From positions 496,001 to 560,000 of the forward strand of contig NZ_JACYFC010000002.1 of the NCBI RefSeq assembly GCF_014803385.1: 64,000 bases of DNA, given 5' to 3'. The stretch's first letter is position 1, and every line of letters starts with the position of its first letter. Under the pieces are notes generated by a model, which made no database searches, was not told the origin of the DNA, and saw only the letters and a list, made by a program, of their open reading frames with translations. The stretch comes from Marinomonas colpomeniae. Its GTDB lineage: Bacteria; Pseudomonadota; Gammaproteobacteria; Pseudomonadales; Marinomonadaceae. Shown piece by piece: positions 9,396 through 15,779 of the stretch. The translations under genes and the position numbers were made by a program.

Positions 9396-10337
9396 TTAGG
9401 CTGGTGGATGATTTTCTATCCAATGATCGGCAATATCGCCTCGGCGAGCAATCCAAACATCGTCATGGGACTGAACGTAATCTAAGAAACGCTTTAGCGC
9501 CATGAAACGGCTTGGTTTTCCTAAGGTTCGACAGTGCATGCCAATAGACATCATCTTTGGTGAAGTGGCTCCTTCTTCATATAAACAATCAAAGTTATCT
9601 TTCAAATATTGAAAAAATTCTTCGCTGTGGTTGAAGCCATAAGGTGAAGAAAATTTCATGTCGTTACAGTCGAGAGTGTAAGGCACAATCAGATGTGGTT
9701 TGGTCTTTCCTTCACTTTTATGAGCCGTGTCATGATGCGGTACTTCAACCCAATAAGGTAAATCGTCACCATAGTTGTCTGAGTCGTATTTGAGCTGAGT
9801 TTGTTCAGCAACTAGGGTTCGAGTATTGGGTGAATCGCGCCCTGTGTACCAACCTGAAGGCTTAACTCCAGTTACTTTCTCAATCAGCGCGAGTGCTTGG
9901 CTCATGTGCGCGCGCTCTTCTTCGATACTCATGTCTTGATAGTGAATCCATTTTAAACCGTGACAAACAATTTCATGGTTACCATCTACAAAGGCTTTTG
10001 CCACATCAGGATTCCGTTCTAAGGCGGTGGCAATGGCGAAAATAGACAAAGGTAAACCACGACGTTCAAATTCGTTCAGAATACGCCATACACCAGAACG
10101 GGAACCGTATTCGTACAGAGATTCCATGCTCATGTGACGATCTTTAAACGGCTGAGCTCCGAAAATTTCAGACAAAAATGTTTCTGAATGCTCATCGCCA
10201 TGAAGAATGCAATTCTCTCCTCCTTCCTCAAAGTTCAATACAAACTGTAGTGCAATGCGAGCATCATTTGGCCAAGCTACTTTGGGCTGTTGGTCGCGGC
10301 TGTAACCTGCGTAATCTCGTTCTAGGTAATGTTTCAT
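9396..10337 (-). CDS. puuE: Allantoinase, polysaccharide-deacetylase-like (PuuE type)
   Basis: A 313-residue protein of the metal-independent PuuE allantoinase family, related to polysaccharide deacetylases. It converts allantoin to allantoate. Family hallmarks include RDYAGYSRDQQPKVAWPN at the start, ALQFVLNFEEGGE, a long central GVWRILNEFERRGLPLSIFA and GWYTGRDSPNTR near residue 160. It supplies substrate to the allantoate amidohydrolase and pucG at the left end of the window, but is separated from them by 7.4 kb and on the opposite strand. Convergent with the AraC gene. Confidence 0.9.
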   Translation of the reverse strand: MKHYLERDYAGYSRDQQPKVAWPNDARIALQFVLNFEEGGENCILHGDEHSETFLSEIFGAQPFKDRHMSMESLYEYGSRSGVWRILNEFERRGLPLSIFAIATALERNPDVAKAFVDGNHEIVCHGLKWIHYQDMSIEEERAHMSQALALIEKVTGVKPSGWYTGRDSPNTRTLVAEQTQLKYDSDNYGDDLPYWVEVPHHDTAHKSEGKTKPHLIVPYTLDCNDMKFSSPYGFNHSEEFFQYLKDNFDCLYEEGATSPKMMSIGMHCRTLGKPSRFMALKRFLDYVQSHDDVWIARRGDIADHWIENHPPA

Positions 10338-10427
10338 AATAGGAGCTCGGTCGTCTGACGTTAACGTTTTAAGTTGAAAGTAATTAACTACAGTAAGTGG
10401 CTGAAAATATGCTTTTAGTATAAAACG

Positions 10428-10462
10428 AAAAAGCCCCGTACTGAATCAGTACGGGGCTTTTT
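10428..10462. terminator. Rho-independent terminator after the amt operon
   Basis: A long perfect inverted repeat with arms AAAAAGCCCCGTACT and AGTACGGGGCTTTTT. With A-runs on one side and T-runs on the other it can work in both directions. It lies downstream of the amt and small-protein genes (minus strand) and upstream of puuE, separating the two units. Confidence 0.9.
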
Positions 10463-10532
10463 AAGTCATATAGCAGTGATAAATAATTGCTTTTGTTCAC
10501 ATCATTTAAGATGAACCAAACATTAGCCTAGA

Positions 10533-10697
10533 TTATTTATGGTTTTTAAAGGCTTCTTTTTCGTGCTTCATGATAGAACCAACTAAGCCTACAACAATGG
10601 CTGCTACACCAATGCTGAATAACACTAACATTGTTGGGCTGTCAGCAAAGGTAAAATACGCTGAAACGTTTTCCCAAGTCGTAATAGATGTACCCAT
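10533..10697 (-). CDS. 54-residue single-pass membrane protein linked to amt
   Basis: A small gene read directly from the sequence. It begins ATG GGT ACA at 10697, preceded by AGAGGAG 7 bases upstream, and ends TAA at 10533. The protein has a short polar N-terminus (MGTSITTWENVSAYFTFADS), one strongly hydrophobic helix (about residues 22-43, LVLFSIGVAAIVVGLVG), and a basic/acidic tail KHEKEAFKNHK. It starts 17 bases after the amt stop and ends just before the strong terminator, so it is cotranscribed with amt. Function unknown; it could be an accessory subunit or regulator of the ammonium channel. I do not recognise a family. Confidence 0.75.
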   Translation of the reverse strand: MGTSITTWENVSAYFTFADSPTMLVLFSIGVAAIVVGLVGSIMKHEKEAFKNHK

Positions 10698-10714
10698 TGT
10701 AATACTCCTCTAGC

Positions 10715-12040
10715 TTATGATTTAGCAATAGATGCTGGAACCGTTTCTGGGTAAGGATGAGCAAGAATTTCTACTTCATCAAGACCTAAGTCTTCTACAC
10801 TTGCTGGTACACGTAGCATGCCTAGTTTCTTAAGAAGAAGAGACACTAGGTAACCAGGTACAAAGCCTAATACTGCGATAACGATCGCACAAAGAGTTTG
10901 TCCATATAACGTGATATCAGGGTTACCACCAACGTTTGGTGTGCCGCCAGCGAATACACCAACAAGAATAACCGCTAAGAAGCCAGTTATACCGTGTACG
11001 CCAACCGCGCCAACGGCATCATCAACACCCATTTTCTCAAGGAATTTCGCTGTACCAACGGCAACGAAGCTCATGCAAATTGCGATGATGAATGCCAAAC
11101 CTGGATCGTATAGATCTAAGCCTGCAGCAACAGAAATGATACCAACAAGACCGCCAGACATCGTCCAGAAAGGATCACGAGTAGCAATGTAACAACCGAT
11201 AACACCACCTGCGAAGCCCATCAAGGTATTGAAAGCGAAAGCAGATAAGTTAGTTGGAGTGCCGTAGATAGTTGTCCATCCAGTTGTATCAACGTTAAAG
11301 ATGATACAACCGCCTAGGAAGCCGAAGAAACCAAAGATGATCATCATCAAACCGATAAGTGTCATCGGAAGGTTATGTGCTTTGATTTGCTGAGCCACGC
11401 CGTTGATGTATTTACCAACACGAGGTCCTAAGTTGATCAACACACCTAGCGTGAAGAAACCAGCAATAGCGTGAACGACACCAGAGGCACCAACATCATG
11501 GTAACCGTACTTAGTCAGCATCCAGCCGTCTGGGTGCCAGCCCCAAGCGCCTGCAAGAATCCAAACAACACTACCCAGTAGTACCGCAAGAATTAAGAAT
11601 GCACTAACGCGAATACGTTCGATAACAGCACCAGATAAGATAGAACCTGTTGTTGCACCAAATAGAGCAAAGGCTGCCCAGAAAATACCGGAGCCCATGT
11701 CTGTTACGTCCGGTCCCATGCTTGTAGACCATGGCAATGCACCGGCTACACTTGTTGGGATAAGACCCGCTGGGAAAGATAAGTAAATCCACCAACCGAA
11801 CAGGTAGAAAGTTGGAATGATAACGGCAAGTGCAAGAATATTTTTTACACCGGCTGCTAATGCGTTTTTACTGCGAGATGCACCCATTTCGTAAGCCAAG
11901 AAGCCCGCGTGAATCATCAACATGATGGCAGTACACCACCAATAGAAGACTTCTACGTTCATCGCTGCGTGCATGTCGAATACCGCCTGCTGCGAATCGA
12001 GCGCAGTTTGGAGGGATTCTAAAGTTGTTTCTGTCGCCAT
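10715..12040 (-). CDS. amt: Ammonium transporter, Amt family
   Basis: A 441-residue channel with about 11 membrane helices. Visible are the N-terminal VFYWWCTAIMLMIHAGFLAYEMG, the conserved Asp/His segment GASGVVHAIAGFFTLG carrying the first pore histidine, and VGVHGITGFLAV carrying the second. It brings ammonium or ammonia into the cell. Unusually no glnK/PII gene adjoins it; instead a 54-residue membrane protein follows. Upstream on the same strand is eutBC, which releases ammonia from ethanolamine, so the neighbourhood is nitrogen-acquisition themed. No sigma-54 promoter was seen in the 265 bases upstream. Confidence 0.92.
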   Translation of the reverse strand: MATETTLESLQTALDSQQAVFDMHAAMNVEVFYWWCTAIMLMIHAGFLAYEMGASRSKNALAAGVKNILALAVIIPTFYLFGWWIYLSFPAGLIPTSVAGALPWSTSMGPDVTDMGSGIFWAAFALFGATTGSILSGAVIERIRVSAFLILAVLLGSVVWILAGAWGWHPDGWMLTKYGYHDVGASGVVHAIAGFFTLGVLINLGPRVGKYINGVAQQIKAHNLPMTLIGLMMIIFGFFGFLGGCIIFNVDTTGWTTIYGTPTNLSAFAFNTLMGFAGGVIGCYIATRDPFWTMSGGLVGIISVAAGLDLYDPGLAFIIAICMSFVAVGTAKFLEKMGVDDAVGAVGVHGITGFLAVILVGVFAGGTPNVGGNPDITLYGQTLCAIVIAVLGFVPGYLVSLLLKKLGMLRVPASVEDLGLDEVEILAHPYPETVPASIAKS

Positions 12041-12305
12041 AATATTGTTCCTATTGTGGGTAAGTTAAACAAAGAGATTTTATATCTACGAATTACTATT
12101 ACCGCTTACGCTTACTATAGAAATGTAAGTGGCTTGTTTTCAGTACGGCATCTTCGTGCTGTTTTCTGATTCTTTCTACTCCCAATGCAGAGAGCTAGGT
12201 ATTGGAAATATTACTACACTGAAATATTTAATCCTGTCAGTGAATACTGTTAGCAAATAATGTGCCTATCCTTTTCGATTTACTTACATTAATGTCAAAA
12301 TTTAA
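12041..12305 (-). promoter_or_regulatory. Region between eutC and amt
   Basis: A 265-base gap that should hold the end of the eut transcript and the amt promoter. A weak hairpin (CAGTACG ... CGTGCTG, about 12147-12168) is present, without a T-run in the minus direction. I looked for a GG-N10-GC sigma-54 element on the minus strand and did not find one. Confidence 0.35.
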
Positions 12306-13193
12306 CTAGTTAGTTAAAAAATTATGAGATTCAGTGCTTTTATCTAGCACTAAATCATCGTCTGATCTGTCTTTTAATTTGACGCCGGATAACTTGAGTG
12401 TTCTAGCTTCGTTCAATAGATAAAAGGCTTTGCGCGCGGCTTCTTGATATACAAGCCCTGCGGGGCGTATGTTTGAGATGCAATTACGAGACGCGTCTGT
12501 TAATCCTGTTTTGCCTTCCCAAGTAAGATATAAACCTAAGCTGTCTGGGGAACTTAAACCGGGTCGTTCGCCAATCAGTACTAAAACGCATTTGGCATTC
12601 AGGCGTTGGCAAATATCATCACCAATCGCTACCCGTCCCTGTTTAACGATACAAATTGGTGCGATGCTCCAATTCGACTCCGTATCATTCTCGGCTGACT
12701 CTGGTTTTTTTAAGTGGGTAAATAAGGCATTTAAAAATGATACGGTATTTTGTTCGATGGCAAGAGACGATAAACCGTCGACGACGGCAATGACTAAGTC
12801 ATAGGGTTGTTGATTCATTGCTGTGTGTTCGTCGAGTATGTTTGCTGATTGATAGTCAAGTCGACGACCATAATCTGGACGTTGTAAATAAGTTGCGCGG
12901 TCCGTCGCGCGACTGTGCAAAATTAGGGGTGCGCAGTCTGGAGCCCAATCCTGCTCCGTAAGGGTTGTTGCAAGTTGCTTAGTGTCTAGTTGAGTGTGAA
13001 CGGCATCAATAGCTTGAGCATGAGCCAATTGAAATGCGAGTAAATGCTTAGTAGGAACGCTAACTCCCGCTCGACCTAAACCAACTCTAGCATCGGTAAA
13101 CGCGTTGAGTTTTTGCCATGGGTTTTCGGTTACTGCTTCTTCTGACTTTAGTGATTGTTGCGTTTGGGGTGAGGTGGTTTCTTTTTGGCTCAT
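12306..13193 (-). CDS. eutC: Ethanolamine ammonia-lyase small (light) subunit
   Basis: A 295-residue EutC. With EutB it forms the adenosylcobalamin-dependent lyase that splits ethanolamine into acetaldehyde and ammonia. The conserved core begins NPWQKLNAFTDARVGLGRAGVSVPT near residue 23. Further on are DYGRRLDYQSANILDE, VIAVVDGLSSLAIEQN and LIGERPGLSSPDSLGLYLTWEGKTG. It overlaps eutB by four bases (ATGA), so translation is coupled. The N-terminal 22 residues are a variable, polar leader. No eutA reactivase or shell-protein genes adjoin it. Confidence 0.93.
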   Translation of the reverse strand: MSQKETTSPQTQQSLKSEEAVTENPWQKLNAFTDARVGLGRAGVSVPTKHLLAFQLAHAQAIDAVHTQLDTKQLATTLTEQDWAPDCAPLILHSRATDRATYLQRPDYGRRLDYQSANILDEHTAMNQQPYDLVIAVVDGLSSLAIEQNTVSFLNALFTHLKKPESAENDTESNWSIAPICIVKQGRVAIGDDICQRLNAKCVLVLIGERPGLSSPDSLGLYLTWEGKTGLTDASRNCISNIRPAGLVYQEAARKAFYLLNEARTLKLSGVKLKDRSDDDLVLDKSTESHNFLTN

Positions 13194-14611
13194 GAGCGGC
13201 CCCCAATCATACGATTAAGTGATTGTTTGAAGGCGTCTGGTAATTGATTATTCAGTGTGAATTTTTCGTTATTTTTGAATATTTCCATTCTTGCTAACCA
13301 AGCGTCGAATTCTGGTGCGGGTTTTAAGCCCAATACACGACGAGCGTAAAGCGCGTCATGAAAAGACGTAGTTTGATAATTCAACATAATGTCATCTGAG
13401 CCAGGGATACCCATAATAAAGGTGCAGCCTGCCACGCCTAATAACGTGAGTAAGTTGTCCATATCGTTTTGGTCGGCTTCAGCATGATTGGTATAACAAA
13501 CATCGCATCCCATAGGTAAGCCAAGTAGCTTTGCACAAAAATGGTCTTCTAATCCGGCGCGAGCAATTTCTTTACCATCGTATAAGTATTCAGGGCCAAT
13601 AAAACCAACAACTGTGTTAACCAGTAATGGATTAAATTTACGGGCAACTGCGTAAGCACGAGTTTCACAAGTTTGCTGATCTAAACCATGATGTGCATTA
13701 GCAGATAGAGAGCTACCTTGTCCTGTTTCAAAATACATGACGTTATTACCAACGGTGCCACGATTTAGTGATAGCGCCGCGTCCTGAGCTTCCGCAAGGT
13801 TAGCAAGGTTAAAGCCAAAGCTATCATTGGTAGCCTGAGTCCCTCCGATCGATTGAAAGACTAAATCGACTGGCGCTCCTTGTTCTATGCACTCAATGGT
13901 GTTGGTCACATGAGTTAACACACACGACTGGGTTGGAATTTCATAATGCTGGATAACTTCATCCATCATTTTAATTAAGCGAGTTGCCTGTTGCACATTA
14001 TCTGTCGCAGGGTTAATGCCAATTACAGCGTCGCCATTGGCGTATAAAAGCCCATCGAGCATAGATGCTGCAATGCCGGTTAAGTCATCCGTTGGGTGAT
14101 TTGGCTGTAAGCGGGTAGATAAATGACCCGGTAATCCTATGGTGTTACGAAAAGCTGTTTTTACATGACACTTTTTGGCAACCAAGATGAGATCTTGATT
14201 ACGCATGATTTTACTGACAGCGGCCGCCATCTCTGGTGTCACACCTGCACGTATACTAATAAGTGCGTCTGGCGTCGCAATATCGCTTAGTAACCAATCT
14301 CGGAAACCACCAACTGTTAAATGAGAGATGGGTGTGAATGCGAGCTTGTCATGGTCATCTATTATGAGACGAGTGATTTCATCGTCTTCATAAGGAATAA
14401 GTGTTTGTTCAAGGAAAATGGTTAGGGGTAAGTCAGCGAGTGTCATTTGTGCGATAGCGCGTTCTTCTGCACTCTCTGCTGCAACGCCTGCTAAGCGATC
14501 ACCTGAGCGTGCAGGGGTTGCTTTTGCCATGAGGTCGGCTAGATCTACAAAACTGAAGGTACGCTCACCTACGACATTGTTAAATTGAAAAGCAGAATGT
14601 GGATTACTCAT
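13190..14611 (-). CDS. eutB: Ethanolamine ammonia-lyase large (heavy) subunit
   Basis: A roughly 473-residue EutB, the catalytic TIM-barrel subunit that binds adenosylcobalamin and ethanolamine. Typical segments are GERTFSFVDLADLMAKATPARSGD at the start, GDAVIGINPATDN, FQSIGGTQATNDSFG and MYFETGQGSSLSANAHHG. I place the start at 14611 (MSNPHS), with GAGAA six bases upstream; an ATG two codons earlier sits right against that site. First gene of the eutB-eutC pair, divergent from an AraC-type regulator. Confidence 0.93.
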   Translation of the reverse strand: MSNPHSAFQFNNVVGERTFSFVDLADLMAKATPARSGDRLAGVAAESAEERAIAQMTLADLPLTIFLEQTLIPYEDDEITRLIIDDHDKLAFTPISHLTVGGFRDWLLSDIATPDALISIRAGVTPEMAAAVSKIMRNQDLILVAKKCHVKTAFRNTIGLPGHLSTRLQPNHPTDDLTGIAASMLDGLLYANGDAVIGINPATDNVQQATRLIKMMDEVIQHYEIPTQSCVLTHVTNTIECIEQGAPVDLVFQSIGGTQATNDSFGFNLANLAEAQDAALSLNRGTVGNNVMYFETGQGSSLSANAHHGLDQQTCETRAYAVARKFNPLLVNTVVGFIGPEYLYDGKEIARAGLEDHFCAKLLGLPMGCDVCYTNHAEADQNDMDNLLTLLGVAGCTFIMGIPGSDDIMLNYQTTSFHDALYARRVLGLKPAPEFDAWLARMEIFKNNEKFTLNNQLPDAFKQSLNRMIGGRS

Positions 14612-14819
14612 AACCATTTCTCGCGTTTTACTAATATCTTGTTGGCCCGAATAAGATAGGATGAAAAGGGCATAATTTTTGCTCTCCTTTACGTTACTTA
14701 ACTTTATAAATAGACGTTATCGAATAATGGCAAAATTACTAAAATTTATATATTTCAGTAAGTTAATTGCTATTTCTTCTTGTTTATTATGGAAAATCAC
14801 AACCTAAATAGGTATCTCA

Positions 14820-15779
14820 ATGCTCAATACAATAACTGATGCTCCAAAAAAGGGCGAAAGAATCAGTGTGTCTGAGGCGTATGATGCTGATTTGCATGCA
14901 AGCAACCTGACTAATTGGCAGCAAGAGTACGATCAAATAAGCCGAGGTGCTTTTTATGGTCGCATTACAGAGTTGTCGTTTGATGGTTTACAGGTCTTTT
15001 GTGAACACACTAGCCAAGCATTGCAGCAAAAGTGTGTTGTCTGGCCTAATTCTGTTTGGCTTGGAATTCCTCTTGTTGGGCAAGAAGATAGTAGAATTAA
15101 TGGGTTAACCATTGGTTCCAATACTATTATGTGTCGACCAGGGGATTGTGAATTCCAATTATCGACCCCGAAAAATTACGATTTATATGGTTTAGTGGTT
15201 GATCAGCCTATGTTGATGAAACTTGCCAATATTCATGGGGTTGAGCTTAATTGGAGAGAGCTAGCTGAACATGGCCGTTTGAGCATACCTGATAAAACCT
15301 TGGAAGAAGTGCGGTTTTTATTGGGGCGTTTGTTAGGTGTCCAACATAAAGAAACACCATTAAGACTACAGCAAGACATTGTGATGATGGCGCTGTTAGA
15401 AGTTTTAAAAGAAGAAACGCCTAAGCCTGCTGCAACACAGAGTTATCACCACCGAAAAACAGTTGTAGATTGTGCTCGTCAATTTTTGGCTGAGCATTTA
15501 GATGATGCTGTGACGGTGACACAATTATGTGAAATTACTAATGTGAGTCGTAGAACACTGCAATATAGTTTTGAAAGTATATTAGGTGTCAGTCCAATTC
15601 AGTATCTTCGAATTAGTCGTTTGAATGGTGTACGGCGCTCACTTGTGCAGGCGACTGAAGATCAAGGAGTCAGTAACATTGCTGCACAATGGGGCTTTTG
15701 GCATTTGAGTCAATTCTCCAAAGACTATAAGCAGTTGTTTGGTGAGCAACCATCACAAACGCTAGAATGGCAAAGCTAG
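14820..15779 (+). CDS. AraC-family regulator, probable activator of eutBC
   Basis: A 319-residue regulator: a long N-terminal sensing region and a C-terminal AraC DNA-binding domain from about 215 (DAVTVTQLCEITNVSRRTLQYSFESILGVSPIQYLR split by the usual turn, then SNIAAQWGFWHLSQFSKDYKQLFGE). It resembles EutR, which activates ethanolamine genes when B12 and ethanolamine are present, and it is divergent from eutB with a 200-base gap. The EutR role is inferred from that position. Confidence 0.8.
   Translation: MLNTITDAPKKGERISVSEAYDADLHASNLTNWQQEYDQISRGAFYGRITELSFDGLQVFCEHTSQALQQKCVVWPNSVWLGIPLVGQEDSRINGLTIGSNTIMCRPGDCEFQLSTPKNYDLYGLVVDQPMLMKLANIHGVELNWRELAEHGRLSIPDKTLEEVRFLLGRLLGVQHKETPLRLQQDIVMMALLEVLKEETPKPAATQSYHHRKTVVDCARQFLAEHLDDAVTVTQLCEITNVSRRTLQYSFESILGVSPIQYLRISRLNGVRRSLVQATEDQGVSNIAAQWGFWHLSQFSKDYKQLFGEQPSQTLEWQS

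Follow-up and report, generated by a model that had tools for sequence, protein, structure and literature searches.

A single-helix microprotein paired with an amine-linked Amt branch suggests a so far overlooked two-component uptake system for small organic amines in Marinomonas and other Pseudomonadota

The small gene behind amt

The 64,000-nucleotide window of Marinomonas colpomeniae (the whole stretch of DNA analysed) contains a unit in which an AraC-type regulator gene is divergent from eutB, eutC, amt and a 54-aa ORF (Table 1). A preliminary description of this DNA had proposed that the ORF encodes a membrane protein, pointing to an ATG with AGAGGAG 7 bases upstream, a 17-base gap behind amt, one helix and a strong terminator. 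Start codon, Shine-Dalgarno sequence and gap were all found in place, with the amt stop codon (TAA at 10715-10717 on the reverse strand) ending 17 nt 5′ of the ATG. The protein has the type I layout of SITTWENVSAYFTFADxP, helix and KHEKEAF tail. Modelled alone with AlphaFold2 (mean pLDDT 79), it consists of short helices at residues 8-14 and 16-19 and a single helix at 21-53, and this 33-residue helix covers the hydrophobic stretch, in agreement with the one helix expected. As for the terminator, a 16-pair hairpin with a T-rich tail is indeed present and is exceptional by its length among the terminator-like sites of the scan, but the number of such sites (3 versus 2.9 by chance) is no excess above chance.

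Table 1. Features of the eutBC-amt-microprotein unit, in window coordinates
Feature	Position	Strand	Basis or remark
54-aa single-helix microprotein, type I	10533..10697	-	ORF, ATG start
Shine-Dalgarno sequence AGAGGAG	10705..10711	-	7 nt before the microprotein ATG
Terminator-like hairpin 3′ of the microprotein ORF	10428..10462	-	16 pairs, 8 GC, T-rich tail
amt, amine-linked branch, 441 aa	10715..12040	-	Pfam PF00909 over cut-off; tree
Codon of Amt Cys245 (E. coli S1-site Ser219 position)	11306..11308	-	alignment
eutC, ethanolamine ammonia-lyase small subunit	12306..13193	-	Pfam PF05985
eutB, ethanolamine ammonia-lyase large subunit	13190..14617	-	clusters with L037, which matches Pfam PF06751
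AraC-type regulator, divergent from eutBC-amt-ORF	14820..15779	+	family cluster; PF12833 on the L108 relative

The 54-aa ORF is a genuine gene, and purifying selection acts on it as a coding sequence. In the eight of 20 pairs of the window gene with a relative for which dN/dS could be computed, the ratio was 0.03-0.14 (at dS of 1.2-4.3, dS being saturated in the remaining 12), and among 21 microprotein genes (210 pairs) pN/pS had a median of 0.22 and a maximum of 0.41. By the criteria of the preliminary description, a dN/dS near 1 or conservation among close relatives only would have spoken against its proposal; the ratio lies far below 1 and the protein is conserved well past such relatives.

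Homologues were sought in phylum, class, order and genus sets (Pseudomonadota) and by a contig scan. A protein search found the microprotein in 11 of 56 genomes including the window's own, with amt adjoining every time, and at an identity of 72-81% in nine of the ten other genomes and of 34% in one. Within the genus, ten of 35 genomes had it by this search, all ten of which carry an Amt of the window's kind (hereafter the branch Amt), while the remaining 25 have neither. The contig scan yielded 17 named loci from Marinomonas, Marinobacterium, Methylophaga, Leucothrix and metagenome-assembled genomes, all 17 directly 3′ of an amt 72-93% identical to that of the window. Profile searches (E ≤0.01) returned 7 genomes in the class set (369), 16 in the order set (293) and 15 in the phylum set (398). 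Matches without an adjoining amt (3/7, 1/16 and 6/15, respectively) were taken as chance, all having E >1e-4, although L014, a true member, also scored merely 3.6e-4. A single profile for all subtypes (A1, A2) recovered just part of the family. A plasmid search gave one record, plasmid 1 of Pseudomonas aeruginosa RW109, where the relative is annotated as a hypothetical protein.

Three subtypes could be told apart by their motifs, namely SPITSWE..xAYFTFAD.P (I), TW.G.EGA.Y.GAG (II) and SW...E.GAIYPF.G.E (III). Profile comparison links subtypes I and II (E 5e-11) and, weakly, subtype III to both (E 8e-4, probability 24%). No Pfam or NCBIfam model scored over its cut-off for the microprotein. DUF3185 (PF11381) was rejected, as the window protein reached 20 of the 25.3 bits of the gathering score over residues 9-39 and one of ten relatives reached 17 bits. 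KdpF, AcrZ and other small-subunit models gave nothing at E ≤1 for the window protein under filters that drop most weak matches, one subtype III protein scored 13.8 of 25.6 bits against CcmD, and Foldseek returned no PDB match for the microprotein.

Pairing with one branch of Amt proteins

The window Amt matches Pfam PF00909 (Ammonium_transp) with 199 bits against a gathering score of 23.2, but stays below the NCBIfam cut-offs for TIGR00836 (197.3 of 343.3 bits), AmtB (NF007947, 59.5 of 657 bits) and the marine subtype TIGR03644 (160 of 514 bits). An Amt with at least 58% identity to it occurs in 11 of 39 Marinomonas genomes, all other matches being 26-35% identical. The small ORF lies behind the branch amt in all 11. 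In the class and phylum sets, Amts at E ≤1e-60 were found in 20 and 14 genomes, and at each of the 31 further loci picked by Amt, amt is followed by a single-helix ORF (54-106 aa), even where the microprotein profile had found nothing (the ORF of L140 falls under the hydrophobicity cut and was recognised by eye). In total, 42 of 42 distinct loci picked by Amt, and hence free of bias from microprotein-based retrieval, have the small ORF. It was seen behind none of 19 other Marinomonas Amts, in 4-kb loci (three of which end before the amt stop) as well as in longer ones that reach past it; these controls, all of one genus, are those among many other-Amt matches that came with locus sequences. 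By the hydrophobicity criterion, chance ORFs that lack the motif do occur behind some of the 19. The motif pattern was drawn up after the sequences had been viewed, and all 59 ORFs were read.

Behind each of the 59 branch genes, the ORF has an ATG start 2-98 nt past the amt stop and a Shine-Dalgarno-like motif ahead of it (within 16 nt, any of five 4-mers). In a tree rooted on the 19 other Marinomonas Amts and E. coli, the branch is coherent (67/67 tips, support 0.96), and its three sub-branches correspond to the three microprotein subtypes. Judged by these loci and the tree, the microprotein partner marks one Amt branch and not Amt generally. The preliminary description had suggested an accessory factor of the channel; because of the constant co-occurrence with one branch (42/42 versus 0/19) an accessory protein of Amt is strongly supported, but not one generic to Amt. 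A partnership of Amt and microprotein is a strong inference.

In 31 of the 39 genus genomes (for example G025, G028 and G007), Amt matches fall in frames of 1008-1063 codons, which would be Amts with a long fused part.

Amine-catabolism neighbours and exchange with the ethanolamine permease

Amine-catabolism genes occur within 5 kb in 51 of 58 branch loci versus three of 19 loci of other Amts. The former count was 52 until L099, taken as methylamine-linked, was dropped because its gene is a plain glutamine synthetase. The neighbouring families were eutBC (20 loci), N-methylglutamate/GmaS-type genes (18, or 17 without L099), Tdm/GcvT-type genes (15), dimethylamine monooxygenase (11), trimethylamine monooxygenase (9) and ethanolamine permease (3), and seven loci had no recognised amine gene in the flanks covered. 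These 58 loci include 37 retrieved via the microprotein (17 by contig scan, 19 by protein or profile search and one plasmid), for which about 3.6-4.7 kb of upstream flank was covered; L146 and L147 are near relatives, and contig ends truncate L147 and L149. Across Pseudomonadota, eut, tdm, dmm, tmm and mgs neighbours vary around a constant amt-ORF pair. The names MgsA/B/C and GmaS are those we presume for the glutamate-synthase-like and type-III glutamine-synthetase-like genes. This naming is backed by the accessible part of one source (PMC3160333); NCBIfam gave wider names only, with one model over cut-off (TIGR03105).

A second, separate association of Amt with methylamine genes was seen in L163, L170 and L174 (Marinomonas), where ordinary Amts about 30% identical to that of the window adjoin gmaS/mgs-type genes and have no small partner.

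Where the branch Amt stands beside eutBC (13 genomes, with amt before eutB in G010, G021, G651 and G506), the ethanolamine permease EatP (TIGR00908) was found in one genome and EutH in none, so that 12 of the 13 are without both known ethanolamine permeases; the EutH count covers these 13 genomes. Among the 28 genus genomes without the branch Amt, 23 have eutB and 21 of these 23 have EatP. In every one of the 21 EatP is located at most about 1.2 kb from eutB, and in 19 it lies downstream with a gap large enough for eutC. Ten eutB-bearing loci without the branch Amt were read, and showed the order eutB-eutC-EatP (seven), EatP-eutB-eutC (two) or no EatP (G002). Fisher's test for EatP versus branch Amt gave 8.7e-7, and within the genus alone EatP is absent from eight of nine genomes with the branch Amt versus two of 23 without it (3.6e-5), relatedness being ignored in both tests. 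This comparison leaves out G034 and G1033, whose branch amt genes are part of dimethylamine/trimethylamine clusters. EatP, an APC-type permease unrelated to Amt, occupies the same slot behind eutC in the majority of Marinomonas eut operons. From this pattern, the branch Amt largely takes the place of the ethanolamine permease in Marinomonas.

Exceptions occur in both directions. G033 has both carriers (eutB-eutC-EatP-amt-ORF), and G002 and G027 have eutBC with neither, the latter as AraC-eutBC (L195); in these two, ethanolamine may enter by diffusion or another carrier. The G002 locus (L183) is colinear with the window except that the regulator, amt and the ORF are missing, the last two together. 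Against window positions 9396-13193 it forms a natural empty site in which eutBC is followed directly by a gene that we assume to be allantoinase-like. On the Amt tree, L097 stands apart from the other 20 eutBC-linked members, which suggests that amt became linked to eutBC on at least two occasions.

The joint absence of amt and ORF in G002, the constant pairing across Pseudomonadota despite changing neighbours and the selection on the microprotein all argue against the ORF being an unrelated small membrane protein or a chance ORF carried along with amt. Its function being read from the DNA alone leaves some room for such a passenger, which we nevertheless regard as extremely improbable.

The main rival to amine import comes from the same operons. 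Ethanolamine ammonia-lyase and methylamine oxidation release ammonia, and the pair might be an ammonium transporter that recaptures leaked NH3/NH4+, with the microprotein stabilising or tuning it. A pore that retains the twin histidines and Phe gate of plain ammonium transporters, together with D160, would suit such a role, and so would the feeding of diatoms by ammonium from methylamine-degrading Rhodobacteraceae (reported in the available text of PMC7574528). Recapture would, however, be needed equally in eut operons that bear EatP, yet EatP is present in 21 of 23 genomes without the branch Amt and absent from 12 of 13 with it. This exchange argues against recapture as the main role, as does a recruitment site altered in every branch member aligned (see below), and we consider recapture rather unlikely.

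An altered recruitment site and a possible two-part importer

In all 68 alignment rows (59 distinct genes plus nine second copies), the branch Amts share with the E. coli AmtB type not only the Pfam family but also the twin-His pair (H168 and H318), D160, F107, W148 and F215 (E. coli numbering). They differ from it in having Cys for Ser219 and Phe for Trp212, again in 68/68 rows, and Leu, Ile or Tyr for Asn216. By comparison, S, W and N are kept at positions 219, 212 and 216 in 19 of 19 other Marinomonas Amts, and S219 is present in E. coli AmtB; the residue aligned to E. coli Q104 differs between two alignments and carries no weight here. The S1 recruitment site consists of Ser219, Trp148 and Phe107, and an S219A change in AmtB enhanced uptake of both methylammonium and ammonium (PMC10433425).

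The branch further differs from the E. coli type in its single-helix partner and in having no PII gene nearby (0/58 loci within 5 kb, as far as the flanks reach, versus 12/19 for other Amts). The usual picture of an Amt is a trimer of one component that PII regulates. The microprotein might be an inhibitor or gate of Amt in place of PII (GlnK), closing the channel as ammonia rises, which would fit the lack of a PII gene in all 58 loci. The C-tail of the branch is nevertheless still of the RV...E..GLD...AYPE kind, like that of other Marinomonas Amts, and presumably has a role in PII binding. The fixed operon pairing with one branch also looks structural rather than switch-like. A precedent exists in sP36 of Methanosarcina mazei, a 61-aa protein that binds AmtB1 and, by bringing it together with GlnK1, is proposed to act as its inhibitor (PMC10714827). 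It resembles the role proposed for the microprotein as a small protein acting on Amt, but it is described there as having no transmembrane helix and as working with GlnK1, whereas the microprotein has a membrane helix and no PII gene near. Altogether, we regard a PII-like gate as improbable.

The reading we prefer is that Amt and a small single-pass subunit import small organic ammonium ions for the adjoining enzymes, which we hold to be rather probable. In its more specific form, the branch would be chiefly a two-component importer of organic amines, with the micro-subunit of about 55 aa completing a periplasmic site that lacks Ser219 and Trp212; this form we regard as possible, at somewhat less than an even chance. 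The gene and the selection on it, its constant Amt pairing, the changed S1 site, the setting among amine-catabolism genes and the EatP exchange are seen in the sequences themselves; that the two proteins bind each other, how the helix is oriented, where it sits on the pore, and what is carried in which direction is what we infer. Lys and Arg are near-absent before the helix and common after it, with the C side exceeding the N side in 56 of 59 microproteins; an N-out/C-in topology is therefore likely. The conserved aromatic N-terminal segment would then face the periplasm, like the altered S1 site of the branch. The segment SW..V.AYFTFA..P would lie at the pore mouth and might complete or cap the recruitment site at which the branch lost Ser219 and Trp212, and the charged KHE..AF tail would face the cytoplasm. 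In eutBC operons the pair would import ethanolammonium; in trimethylamine N-oxide, dimethylamine and monomethylamine clusters it would import methylammonium and perhaps dimethylammonium. A fusion model of the L042 amt and ORF (in frame, with the stop read as Q) had a mean pLDDT of 49, too poor to read.

In architecture and proposed role, one helix on a large transporter, the microprotein resembles KdpF, AcrZ and CcmD, which are small single-helix transporter subunits according to the accessible text of PMC10903887. It differs from them in matching no model over cut-off and in having an Amt as its partner. A gene neighbourhood of the same kind is known from Rhodobacteraceae, in whose methylamine clusters amt is drawn as an ammonia or ammonium transporter, with no small partner mentioned in the available portions of the sources (PMC7574528, PMC4744692, PMC5520151). 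In the open-access literature searched, no transmembrane subunit of an Amt was found, and the microprotein, if the proposed role is right, would be the first known within that literature. The pair would likewise give marine bacteria a way of taking up ethanolamine and monomethylamine that has gone unrecognised, and would supply an uptake gene for marine nitrogen-cycle pathways drawn with just an "ammonium transporter". A constant micro-subunit that fits no family, together with a rebuilt S1 site, would alter the picture of Amt as single-component and PII-regulated, and a natural S1 variant, if indeed an importer, would make the debate on Amt selectivity directly testable. The idea of an accessory subunit has all the support that sequence can offer. 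We find the Amt branch itself the more interesting part, as an amine-linked, two-gene transporter type that suggests a so far overlooked two-component uptake system for ethanolamine, methylamine and similar small organic amines.

On the 555-kb plasmid 1 of P. aeruginosa RW109 (L089), the branch amt and its 59-aa "hypothetical protein" are flanked by a chemotaxis receptor gene and a gene annotated as betaine aldehyde dehydrogenase, and genes of the dimethylamine monooxygenase type are found close by. Three loci (L089, L098 and L107) encode, next to amt-ORF, a chemotaxis-receptor-like protein that is short at about 340 aa, which might hint at taxis towards the transported amine.
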